DNA of 64,000 nucleotides, from assembly GCF_001294535.1 (NCBI RefSeq), contig NZ_LGIC01000007.1, positions 124,001 through 188,000 of the forward strand. The letters run 5' to 3'. Under the pieces are notes generated by a model. The model did no database searches, was not told where the DNA came from, and saw nothing but the letters and a program-made list of their open reading frames with translations. A program made the translations under genes and the position numbers. The stretch is from Cypionkella psychrotolerans. Its GTDB lineage: Bacteria > Pseudomonadota > Alphaproteobacteria > Rhodobacterales > Rhodobacteraceae. Below are positions 58,640-61,941 of the stretch, in pieces; positions within the stretch are counted from its first letter, which is position 1; each line of letters begins with the position of its first letter.

Positions 58640-59090
58640 GGGTGTCTCCTCTGCCGGGGTTATAGGGGATTGGTGAGGCGGGGGAAGGTCTGGGGGCGAC
58701 AGGGGGAGGGGTGGAATTGGGGGGTGTATGGAGGTTTGGTATCCGCTGCCATGTTTCTCAGGTTTTCTATGTCTTAGTCATTGCAAGCAAACAACCCGCC
58801 CGGATTCAAGGCGCTTTAGCGCCGCCGGGCAGCGCCTGACCGCCCCCACGGGCGGGCGCTTCTGCGCTGTCTCGCTTAGAACTTCTGGGGGATTTGCTGA
58901 AGCATAAAGTGCCTAGAACATCTGTGGCTGCGCCCACCCGGCGGTCTGGCGCTGCCCTATGTTGTGCATGTAAAACGCAGTTGATCTAATAACTTGGCGG
59001 ACATTGCAAGCAAGTCTTTTCTGAAATACCGTAGTCCTGATTAATGTTGCATAGGAACCCATCACCTAATTTCTGATCAGAAGAGAACCG
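58640..59090. other. 451-base gap with structured repeat copy A and flanking direct repeats
   Basis: No gene is seen. The segment holds a 12-base direct repeat CATTGCAAGCAA at 58779-58790 and 59002-59013, bracketing the structured repeat described at 58798-58980. Promoters for the flanking divergent genes should lie near the edges. The first ~140 bases are G-rich and the last ~110 AT-rich. Confidence 0.7.
58798..58980. repeat. Structured intergenic element, copy A
   Basis: Four pairings are visible: GCCCGG/CCGGGC (58798-58803 with 58825-58830) enclosing GGCGC/GCGCC; the long-range stem GGGCAGCGCC/GGCGCTGCCC (58827-58836 with 58948-58957); the hairpin CGCCC/GGGCG (58841-58854); and a partly mismatched stem 58877-58886 with 58915-58924 around a 28-nt loop. 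The loop contains GAAGCATAAAGTGC. Copy B at 59802 has the same plan with compensating changes. The first pairing and the long-range stem share bases, so they exclude each other. Strand is undecided. Confidence 0.65.
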
Positions 59091-59744
59091 ATGCGAATTT
59101 GCGATCTCGCAGGCTACTTGTCCGCACTTTGGGTTACAGGTTCTGTTCCCGCTTTTGCAGACAATCCTTTGCCACTTGTAGAGCACGCTGGAACAATCGG
59201 TGCTCCTGAATTCATTGCAGTCTTCAAAAATTTTTGCCTTGAGCACTTTGCGAATTTCCCCGCAATAAAAGCTGCATTCAACAATAATGGGTTTGATGTA
59301 ACCCCTCGTTTTGATGACTGTCCTTGGCCGACTTGGAAAGTCACCGATGATCGTAAAGGCATCTTAGGGCTATTCGGATTCAGCAAGGGGTATGACGATT
59401 ACGACTACGATGTTTGTGTGATCGAAGCATATGTGATCGACCCAGAGACAATGGATAGAAAGACTCTCGCCGCGGACCTGGCTGCCGGCGCTCCAGTTCG
59501 CCAAAGTCCGCCAATTTCTCGCTGGGCGAATGGTTTTGAAAGCACTTTCACGCGATGTGCTGCGGACGGCAATGAGGCAGAAATATCCTTGGAATGGCCA
59601 GACCTTTGGGTGCATAAGCCTTCCGGTCAAACCGCTTCACAACGTGAGCGGAAGAAGTTCACCCTGAGTATCACACGAAAATTAAAGTACATTGGGTCGG
59701 ACCTTAGCAAGTTTAAACGCGAGGGGGAGCGAACACCCTGTTAG
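59091..59744 (+). CDS. Orphan exported protein between two structured repeats
   Basis: A 217-residue protein, not recognised. It has a short signal peptide (MRICDLAGYLSALWVTGSVPAFA). Several Cys in the mature part (FCLEHF, DDCPWPTW, CVIEAY, TRCAAD) could form disulfides, and there is an acidic DYDYD patch and a basic C-terminal third. Base composition and codon use are less GC-biased than the surroundings. It lies between structured repeat copies A and B, its start 111 bases after A and its stop 58 bases before B, which suggests arrival as a unit. No enzyme motif is visible. Confidence 0.6.
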   Translation: MRICDLAGYLSALWVTGSVPAFADNPLPLVEHAGTIGAPEFIAVFKNFCLEHFANFPAIKAAFNNNGFDVTPRFDDCPWPTWKVTDDRKGILGLFGFSKGYDDYDYDVCVIEAYVIDPETMDRKTLAADLAAGAPVRQSPPISRWANGFESTFTRCAADGNEAEISLEWPDLWVHKPSGQTASQRERKKFTLSITRKLKYIGSDLSKFKREGERTPC

Positions 59745-60102
59745 CAATGCTGGCGCAGTCGAGCTCGCAGATATCTGACACTACTTTGGCGTTCCCCTCT
59801 TGCCCGGAATCAAGGGCGAAGCCCGCCGGGCCGCGCCCGCCCTCCCGCCGGGAGGGCGCGATTGCCAAGGTCACCAGCAGAAGTTCTGGGGGAGTGCTTG
59901 AGGCATAAAGTGCGTAGAACTTCTGTTGGCGCGTCCTCCCGAGGTCGGGCGCGGCCCTGTGTTGGTGATCAAAAACTGCACAAATATCGGCCATCACTTG
60001 CCTGCGTTTGCGATTGCGCTCTTGAAGCCTGCTTCGGCAAGGGTCAATAAGGGACGCAAGTTTGCGCATCGCTTGCGGCGCGCCATAGCCAGAGGATCAG
60101 CC
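59745..60102. other. 358-base gap before ilvD with structured repeat copy B
   Basis: No credible gene is seen. The segment holds the structured element at 59802-59980 and about 120 bases of leader before the ilvD start. An open frame reaching back from ilvD to 59926 has no ribosome site and no family resemblance. Confidence 0.7.
59802..59980. repeat. Structured intergenic element, copy B
   Basis: Same plan and orientation as copy A. GCCCGG/CCGGGC (59802-59807 with 59826-59831) encloses GGGC/GCCC. The long-range stem GGGCCGCGCCCG/CGGGCGCGGCCC (59828-59839 with 59946-59957) is perfect over 12 bp. A 9-bp hairpin CGCCCTCCC/GGGAGGGCG spans 59838-59858. A 14-bp stem (59874-59887 with 59916-59929, one wobble pair) encloses a 28-nt loop containing GAGGCATAAAGTGC. 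Sequence is most conserved in the loop and most variable in the stems. Confidence 0.68.
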
Positions 60103-61941
60103 ATGCCTGTTTATCGTTCCAGAACCACCACTCACGGCCGCAATATGGCGGGTGCGCGCGGGCTTTGGCGTGCGACGGGGATGAAGGATGGCGACTTTGG
60201 CAAGCCGATCATTGCGATTGTGAACTCGTTCACCCAGTTTGTCCCCGGGCATGTGCATCTGAAAGACCTCGGGCAGATGGTGGCGCGCGAGGTCGAGCGG
60301 GCTGGTGGCGTGGCGAAGGAATTCAACACCATTGCGGTGGATGATGGCATTGCGATGGGGCATGACGGGATGCTGTATTCGCTACCGTCGCGGGAATTGA
60401 TCGCGGATTCGGTGGAATATATGGTCAACGCCCATTGCGCGGATGCGATGGTGTGTATTTCCAACTGCGACAAGATCACTCCCGGCATGCTGATGGCGGC
60501 GATGCGGCTGAACATTCCGGTGGTGTTTGTGTCGGGCGGGCCGATGGAGGCTGGCAAGGTGGTGATCGACGGCAAGGAATTGGCGCTCGATCTTGTCGAT
60601 GCGATGGTCTCGGCGGCGGATGAAAGCGTGTCGGATGCGGATCTGGCGAAGATTGAGGCAGCGGCTTGCCCGACGTGTGGGTCATGTTCGGGGATGTTTA
60701 CGGCCAATTCGATGAACTGTCTGACGGAAGCTTTGGGGCTGTCTTTGCCGGGCAATGGCTCGACTTTGGCGACGCATTCGGCGCGGCAGGGGTTGTTCCT
60801 TGAGGCGGGGCGGGTGATCGTCGATATCACCAAGCGGCATTATGAGGGCAACGAGAAGGGCCTGTTGCCGCGCGAGATTGCGAGCAAAGGCGCGTTTGAA
60901 AATGCGATGGCGCTGGATATTGCGATGGGTGGGTCCACCAACACTGTGCTGCACATCTTGGCTGCGGCGCACGAGGGTGGCGTCGATTTCACCATGGCCG
61001 ACATTGATGCTTTGAGCCGCAAGGTGCCGGTGTTGTGCAAGGTGGCCCCGGCCAAGCAGGACGTTCATATGGAGGACGTGCATCGCGCGGGCGGGATCAT
61101 GGCGATCTTGGGTCAGTTGGATGCGGCGGGGCTGTTGAACCGCGATTGTCCGACGGTGCATGCGCCGACGTTGGGGGCGGCGATTGACCATTGGGATATT
61201 TCGCGCAGCAATCATCCAGAAGTGCGCGAGTTGTTTTTGGCGGCACCGGGTGGGGTTCCGACCCAAGTTGCGTTCAGCCAGAGCCGGAAATGGGCGGAGT
61301 TGGATACTGACCGGGCGAAGGGGGTTATTCGTTCGGCGAAGACTCCGTTCTCGAAGGATGGCGGCTTGGCTGTGCTGTCGGGGAACATTGCGCCAGAGGG
61401 CTGTATTGTGAAGACCGCTGGGGTGGATGACAGCATTCTGGTGTTCGCAGGCCCGGCGCGGGTGTTTGAATCGCAGAACGCCGCCGTGGAGGCGATCCTG
61501 TCGAACTGGATCAAAGAAGGCGATGTGCTGGTGATCCGCTATGAGGGGCCGAAAGGTGGGCCGGGGATGCAGGAGATGCTGTATCCGACCTCGTATCTGA
61601 AATCGAAGGGGCTTGGCAAAGCCTGTGCACTGCTGACCGATGGGCGGTTCTCGGGCGGCACTTCGGGTCTGTCGATTGGGCATGTCTCGCCTGAGGCGGC
61701 TTCGGGGGGGCTGATTGGCCTTGTGGAAGAAGGCGACCGGATTGAGATCAACATTCCGGCGCGGACCATTCATTTGGCGGTGTCGGAGGCGGATCTGGCG
61801 GTACGGCGGGCGGCGCAGGATGCCAAGGGTTGGAAGCCGGTGAAGCCGCGGGCGCGGAAAGTGTCTCAGGCGCTGCGGGCTTATGGGTTGTTTGCGACTT
61901 CGGCGGCGACGGGGGCTGTGCGGCGGTTGCCGGGCGAGTAA
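60103..61941 (+). CDS. ilvD: Dihydroxy-acid dehydratase
   Basis: Dehydrates 2,3-dihydroxy-3-methylbutanoate and -pentanoate in valine, isoleucine and leucine synthesis. The 612 residues include [19 protein letters not shown] at the start, [13 protein letters not shown], the iron-sulfur Cys motif [28 protein letters not shown] and the C-terminal [19 protein letters not shown]. The ATG at 60103 is selected because it is the normal family start. A type II dispersed motif with hairpin follows. Confidence 0.97.

Follow-up and report, generated by a model that had tools for sequence, protein, structure and literature searches.

A small palindromic repeat of Rhodobacteraceae with two rival folds and turnover of its copies at kept gene-end sites

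Results

Two copies of a structured element at the locus

The window, that is the whole stretch of 64,000 nt that was analysed, comes from the genome of Cypionkella psychrotolerans (G000; C7:124001-188000) and contains two of the 12 copies of a structured element in that genome, here called A and B. An orphan gene lies between them, and downstream of copy B follows a gene which, from its protein, we take to be ilvD-like. The features are as follows.

58798..58965, + strand: core of copy A, AGCGCC-stem subtype (genome search and covariance model; 12 full copies in G000)
58798..58830, + strand: hairpin P1 of copy A (letters checked)
58827..58957, + strand: long-range stem P2 of copy A, 58827-58844 / 58940-58957 (complementarity, folding, column alignment, letters)
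58854..58935, + strand: P4 of copy A, 58854-58859 / 58930-58935, closing the variable domain (folding, alignment, letters)
59091..59744, + strand: orphan ORF between the copies, 217 aa, set apart from the element (frame, GC)
59802..59965, + strand: core of copy B, CGCGCC-stem subtype (search, fold, model; ilvD-side counterparts in four related genomes)
59828..59957, + strand: P2 of copy B, 59828-59844 / 59941-59957 (complementarity, folding, letters)
60103..61941, + strand: presumed ilvD-like gene, the anchor for locating copy B in relatives (frame, ATG, relatives)

An earlier note on this DNA had placed two copies of a folded element here in the same orientation, and both were located there. 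The starts it gave hold, whereas the ends do not: the cores stop near 58965 and 59965, not at 58980 and 59980. P1 of copy A consists of the outer arms GCCCGG (58798-58803) and CCGGGC (58825-58830) with the inner hairpin GGCGC-TTTA-GCGCC at 58810-58823, and holds a CCGGAATCAAG-type motif. The motif ATAAA is found at 58904-58908 in copy A and at 59905-59909 in copy B. The long-range arms are 94% complementary in copy A and likewise in copy B, and the exchange of an A-T for a C-G pair in this stem between the copies is present as had been described. Compared with 200 dinucleotide shuffles each, both copies showed a better fold than all of them (z -4.0 for A and -5.4 for B), and the fold of the reverse strand of copy A likewise beats all of its shuffles (z -4.0). 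GGGC at 58827-58830 takes part both in the helix GCCCGG/CCGGGC (58798-58803/58825-58830) and in the long stem, which compete for it. The proposal of two mutually exclusive pairings via this GGGC was borne out by the letters, in which both helices are found, and by the alignments described below, which support both states.

The stretch of the orphan gene has a GC content of about 0.47-0.51, compared with about 0.59-0.67 around it; 59091-59744 is AT-rich and, as judged by eye, begins with a possible signal peptide. No match to the protein was seen in Pfam, plasmids or viral contigs, and no relative in the ilvD loci of G001, G005, G007 and G009 compared (the G005 contig ends close behind the element). 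Copy B itself precedes the ilvD-like start (60103) by about 138 nt. In these four genomes it has counterparts on the upstream side of ilvD, as a tandem pair in G009 (L128) and decayed, with broken stems, in G001 and G007. A model search of the corresponding ilvD loci in G002, G003, G004, G014, G016 and G021 returned no element. Because copy B has ilvD-side counterparts in four relatives, in which the DNA compared around them lacks the orphan gene, this gene looks incidental to the element, and the special link between the two that had been suspected was not upheld. A two-copy composite carrying the orphan gene was rejected on the same grounds, and also since copies A and B are different subtypes and the orphan protein is unmatched in the collections named above. 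In another genus, an element of Alloyangia (L344; G411:C20:211848-212016) lies upstream of what we presume to be ilvD from its first residues, in an orientation to the gene opposite to that in the window.

Range and copy number of the family

A DNA search of G000 gave 14 places, and a covariance model made from 12 copies gave 12 copies. When applied to 61 genomes (G000 included), this model matched 27, all of the same family (Rhodobacteraceae), and none of the 24 genomes of other families. A second model, made from 29 copies of G029 (Rubricella aquisinus DSM 103377), found the element in 126 of 199 Rhodobacteraceae genomes, one per genus and G000 included, and regained the window copies at E 8e-23 and 1.5e-22. 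Among 192 genomes sampled from the class five were matched, two Rhodobacteraceae and three outside the family (of at most 189 alphaproteobacteria), these three being marginal and close to chance (E 6.6e-4 to 9.3e-4). A contig scan with one P1 pattern yielded at least 120 loci; among the matches listed, the 80 with titles belong, by genus name, to Rhodobacteraceae/Paracoccaceae or to an unplaced alphaproteobacterial contig.

In addition to the 12 in G000, the model matched G005 at 37 places, with 19 long forms among them, G029 at 44, and the two Alloyangia genomes G411 and G412 at 33 and 52, these five counts including some short or partial matches and reverse-strand duplicates. In several genomes of the 199-genome search all 14 scored candidates were matches, that is at least 14, so that copy numbers there are probably higher than counted. 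A sensitive plasmid search with copy A returned 143 records (128 from Pseudosulfitobacter, 10 from Leisingera, 5 others), and a near search with the same query returned none. A phage origin was discarded: copy A was unmatched in phage records and two P1 patterns were unmatched in viral contigs.

Several variant forms were seen. The G005 loci L078-L087 (e.g. G005:C7:321125-321212) make up a shorter dispersed family of about 88 nt with the same P1/P2 architecture without the ATAAA domain, and several of its members have common flanks (AAACCGCTTCAAGCA...) and similar distances to stop codons. A hairpin-rich insert of about 69 nt occupies the same P2/P3 point in L070 and L072 (G005) and L047 (G004), which are different loci, and other inserts lie near that point in L071 and in the G007 copy beside ilvD. 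Besides the pair in G009, three tandem copies in one orientation were found at G005:C24:161598-162372.

Architecture and covariation of the stems

Motif counts were made on a set of 103 copies (30 from G029, 16 from G005, 10 of the 12 from G000, 30 from Alloyangia and 17 others), with 12 short G005 matches (about 70-90 nt) and the two G000 copies that lie close to a contig start excluded. The element is about 165 nt long and comprises, 5' to 3' on the strand described here, P1, P2, H1/P3, P4 and a variable domain, followed by the 3' arms of P4 and P2. P1 is a hairpin with arms NNCCGG/CCGGNN enclosing a smaller hairpin and an unpaired AATCAA. P2 is a long-range stem of about 15-18 bp, the first bases of which double as the 3' arm of P1; hence the 3' arm of P2 duplicates the 5' arm of P1, and these two arms compete for the middle segment. 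In addition, one motif (AGCGCC, CGCGCC, GCGGCC and others) is common to both arms of P2 and both arms of P4, so that the 5' arm of P2 can pair either with the 3' arm of P2 or with the 5' arm of P4 (H1), and the 3' arm of P4 with the 3' arm of P2 (H2). The variable domain of 60-70 nt is almost free in sequence, nearly constant in length, and contains ATAAA, which is in the expected place in 87 of the 103 copies and anywhere in 95; the corresponding counts for TCAAG are 78 and 80. A 28-nt loop that had been reported as conserved proved so inside the genus but not beyond it, as in 29 copies of another genus its letters are close to random apart from ATAAA.

All pairs of columns were tested against each other in a sequence-only alignment of 29 G029 copies, with no structure supplied and L094 (incomplete 5' end) left out. 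The top values ran from 38.7 down to 23.0, compared with maxima of 16.8-20.7 in 20 column shuffles. The best pairs were 13-40 (P1), 40-176 (P2), the identity 13/176, 25-33 (inner P1), 51-165 (P2), 47-68 (H1) and 47-169 (P2), with the P4 pair 68-153 a little lower. Columns 13/40/176 and 47/68/153/169 covary as groups. Values above the shuffles also include same-base links between arms (e.g. 47-153, 68-169) and stem columns that simply set one stem subtype apart from all others (50, 54, 65, 162, 166).

Both pairing states were upheld by this alignment. With P1, H1 and H2 formed, 92.7% of the cells are paired and 13 of 27 pairs show double changes; with inner P1, P2 and P4 formed, the values are 91.7% and 17 of 27. 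For neither state was any of 500 shuffles as good, and sliding the partners by 1-3 columns left 28-51% paired; this control keeps the relatedness of the copies, which the column shuffles ignore. Pairing was 98.9% in outer P1, 98.0% in H1, 89.9% in the long-range P2 and only 75.3% in H2. A wider alignment comprised 137 matches, of which 132 are distinct and some are partial or lie on the reverse strand; in it 95.5% of the cells pair and 22 of 26 pairs show double changes, the alignment being model-fitted and leaning towards the structure. The 12-copy G000 alignment had double changes in only 3 of 31 predicted pairs and a covariation term near zero, and G000 by itself is therefore insufficient to prove covariation. 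Across the larger sets the stems covary. The compensating stems reported from the two window copies are in this way matched by many further copies from the covariance-model search with many compensating changes; uncompensated changes, which had been named as a refuting sign, do occur in some decayed copies, many others being compensated.

The strand on which the fold may act

Non-Watson-Crick transition cells in the stems were counted on the described strand in 98 rows (the best 103 of the 137 aligned matches minus duplicates and rows under 140 nt). A.C cells exceeded G.T cells by 66 to 22, distributed as 20 to 4 in Rubricella, 24 to 7 in Alloyangia and 22 to 11 in the rest (p 0.08). For the count within the 29-row G029 alignment 20 rows were used, the nine rows of other stem types, at least some of which were out of register by one column in P2, being dropped. 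At equal opportunity the A.C excess gave p 1.6e-4 for the 3' arm and 8e-4 for the 5' arm, values that are too small because cells were treated as independent whereas the copies are related; counted by column pairs, the excess is weaker (13 to 7). Mutation was rejected as its cause, since the interior base skew (G>C and T>A on the described strand) runs in the opposite direction. As A.C on the described strand corresponds to a G.T wobble on the other, the count suggests that the fold under selection is that of the complementary strand, either as RNA or as single-stranded DNA.

Placement at gene ends

Genes were called by a home-made hexamer model that regains the neighbours of the window copies and misses the AT-rich orphan gene. 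Among the matches listed from the contig scan, 3 of 124 midpoints fell inside called genes. The 99 element-bearing gaps among these matches were convergent in 44 cases, codirectional in 51 and divergent in 4, compared with 74, 356 and 116 element-free control gaps of the same loci. Among the matches listed, convergent gaps are thus enriched for the element (odds ratio 5.1, p 2.6e-11) and divergent gaps depleted of it (odds ratio 0.16, p 8.8e-6), and the element sits at the 3' ends of genes: the nearest facing stop codon lies at a median of 47 nt (95 gaps, likewise among the matches listed). In G029 the medians on the two sides are 13 and 12.5 nt; over G029 and G411 they range from 12.5 to 19 nt, and they are longer in the other sets.

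No preference for a transcript strand was found. In codirectional gaps the complementary strand was mRNA sense 53 times and the described strand 44 times (p 0.42), in sets that overlap in organisms with possible double counts and with 21 elements omitted for which both neighbours had not been called. Any host role would therefore be orientation-free. A simple scan found terminator-like hairpins within 90 nt outside 24 of the 103 copies, compared with 8.0 in shuffled flanks; at L319/L325 and L326/L333 such a hairpin lies directly behind the element. A T-rich 3' edge was seen in 27 of 103 copies on the described strand and in 15 on the other, counted without a shuffled control, and H1 is directly followed by TTTT in 17 of 103.

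Persistent sites with changing occupants

Sites stay occupied for long. At least 7 of the 12 G000 copies have a counterpart beside the same genes in a related genome (fetched loci, two of them by one flank only). Identity within 18 pairs of within-genus positional counterparts is 0.72-0.94, and the intergenic DNA around several of them is largely unalignable (partly alignable for L023/L067 and L005/L065). In only 1 of 15 comparable pairs was the positional counterpart closer than the best paralogue in each of the two genomes, a comparison that contained just two copies each from G001 and G007. At the L024/L061 site the occupants are in opposite orientations, as judged from the directions of the flanks.

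That occupants are replaced, and often by a copy of opposite orientation, is clear in one genome pair, Alloyangia pacifica DSM 26894 (G411) and Alloyangia strain KcN7-14 (G412). The comparison comprised 15 of the 33 G411 matches, 7 via flank comparison and 8 via flank query. All 15 sites have a counterpart in G412; it is occupied by an element except at L340, where there is a palindromic remnant. Of the 14 readable sites, seven are occupied in the same direction (L319, L321, L330, L332, L334, L336, L344) and seven in opposite directions (L315, L318, L323, L326, L328, L338, L342); the G412 occupants at L338, L342 and L344 are rearranged, lie outside the model matches and were read by eye. The five opposite pairs that were measured have identities of 0.73-0.79, as in unrelated copies (550 other pairs: mean 0.75, sd 0.06, highest 0.86). 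Being no more alike than unrelated copies, these occupants were replaced and not flipped, and flipping of one element in place is ruled out for the five. Six same-facing pairs were measured, of which three (0.87, 0.92, 0.95) exceed the background maximum and three (0.81, 0.76, 0.66) do not. In other species, the contig-scan loci among the matches listed gave four same-facing and three opposite readable cross-species sites; two of the three opposite pairs have L196 in common, and most of these sites rest on one flank.

No clean empty site was present among the 15 Alloyangia sites. L340 was considered as one and discarded, as the gap in G412 is shorter yet the palindromic remnant is still there. 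By eye this remnant (C14:34299-34485) resembles a deletion between the two P2 arms, which is the expected behaviour of long palindromes.

Discussion

The element is widespread: with one genome taken per genus of a large and mostly marine family, 126 of 199 contain it. The family of copies is apparently unnamed: there was no Rfam match where tested, and a search of the openly licensed PMC literature found no paper describing it. Two properties are unusual. Several strands of one element change together in such a way that both rival folds are preserved, and a given gene end goes on carrying an element even as one copy is exchanged for another in the reverse direction.

The reading to which we give somewhat better than even chances is that of a short, non-autonomous repeat, peculiar to Rhodobacteraceae and of the REPIN/BIME kind, whose copies are replaced and reversed at kept gene-end sites. 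The palindromic hairpins H1 and H2 face each other across the variable spacer, and the same strands can fold either as two separate hairpins (together with P1) or as one long-range stem (P2 with P4). The element might spread or be exchanged as a folded single strand, probably the complement of the described strand, handled by a cellular or transposon enzyme, and new copies would land at, or overwrite, existing ones. At gene ends the copies may be tolerated or even useful, since the fold there would work in either orientation. Rather than by insertion, the turnover could have come about by gene conversion among copies or through loss from a pair present in the ancestor.

Three other readings were weighed against this one. 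The element could be a host 3'-UTR structure, an RNA fold that works both ways and protects or ends the mRNAs of convergent genes, kept by selection site by site with no recent mobility. The location of copies between convergent genes, few to some tens of nt from the stop codons, would agree with this, as would the folding of both strands and the persistence of copies at orthologous sites whose flanking DNA can in large part no longer be aligned. We nevertheless hold it to be rather unlikely. A different copy in the other orientation at 7 of 14 sites (identity measured for 5) needs a copying process, and the strand-specific motifs (ATAAA in 95 and TCAAG in 80 of 103 copies) would be superfluous for a symmetric fold; furthermore, several copies have terminator-like hairpins just outside them (24 of 103 against 8.0 shuffled), while TTTT directly after H1 is found in only 17 of 103. 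We regard as distinctly improbable a family of independent small RNA genes with many paralogues, transcribed from the complementary strand into an RNA with a switchable fold. Strong covariation and the excess of A.C over G.T on the described strand, that is of G.U on the other, speak for such a transcript. Against it stand about 40 members in a single genome whose variable domain is constant in length with almost no sequence conservation, a combination that is unusual for a trans-acting RNA, and the lack of a matching Rfam family, two hits being at chance level.

The least probable of the three, in our estimate, would be a site acting at the level of DNA, where a cruciform or a bound protein such as gyrase might absorb torsion between convergent genes. 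E. coli BIMEs have been proposed to act likewise. Such a site would account for the convergent enrichment and the orientation-free placement, and REPs, which favour convergent genes, are binding sites of gyrase, Pol I and IHF (PMC1525189). However, codirectional gaps make up about half of those with an element (51 of 99, among the matches listed), and a cruciform would yield no strand bias of imperfect pairs.

Returning to a mobile repeat of the REPIN/BIME kind, a bolder form of it, which might be called a 'homing hairpin', is unlikely in our view, though a little less so than the readings just discussed. Here the complementary single strand would be the unit of copying, with two exclusive folds both kept by three- and four-strand co-variation; it would overwrite copies at gene 3' ends, re-entering in either orientation, with the help of an enzyme unlike the REP transposases known so far. 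If true, this would in the extreme make the element a SINE-like element of bacteria. The questions raised are what copies a palindromic repeat into the same sites without a REP transposase, and what the cell might gain from a fold that works in either direction.

Comparison with known systems

With the structured RNAs of Rfam the element shares a covarying fold that is recognised across genera by covariance models. A known RNA family was rejected, as none of 4227 families (Rfam 15) reached its gathering score in the window; at E<=1, 12 loci with copies gave no match, and a further Rfam search gave the two chance-level hits. Integron attC sites were likewise rejected: the core-site motif (RYYYAAC, GTTRRRY) is at the ends of 0 of 103 copies.

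ERIC/RU-type and MITE-like repeats are similar in size (units of 127 and 168 bp, PMC2759123) and in intergenic dispersal, but the former are enterobacterial. The CGTC-tagged REPs of alphaproteobacteria, units of 20-40 bp with an unpaired CGTC at one end, are also alphaproteobacterial palindromes without a known dedicated transposase (PMC3733652). They differ in being much shorter and in bearing the tag at one end; CGTC occurs in 69 of 103 copies of the element, most commonly in the 5-nt bin 45-49 (28 hits), which is in the P2/P3 stem region and not at an end.

The closest likeness is to REPINs and BIMEs, which PMC8049555 describes as two inverted REPs with a diverse spacer between them, moved by a RAYT. 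Two inverted palindromic units around a short and very diverse spacer, dispersed extragenic positions, a preference for convergent genes and long persistence are common to the element and to REPIN/REP doublets (PMC8049555, PMC1525189). The element differs from them in having no fixed GTAG tag (GTAG is scattered over 16 of 103 copies), an extra P1 hairpin that competes with the long stem, fixed CCGGAATCAAG-type and ATAAA motifs, and orientation turnover at fixed sites. With 12 to 52 matches per genome in five genomes, it also stays below the usual numbers of REPs, given as more than 100 in PMC2817692. The Y1_Tnp domain (PF01797) scored over the cut-off in G029, G021 and G154; in G000 and G005 its scores were weak and did not exceed the cut-off, and there was no match in the element-bearing G017, G023, G024, G032, G411, G412, G204 and G085. 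Mobilisation of the RAYT/IS200 type was rejected, as the presence of PF01797 does not track the element. Because neither a GTAG tag nor a consistent genomic Y1 transposase accompanies the element, it is better described as working like a REPIN than as being one.
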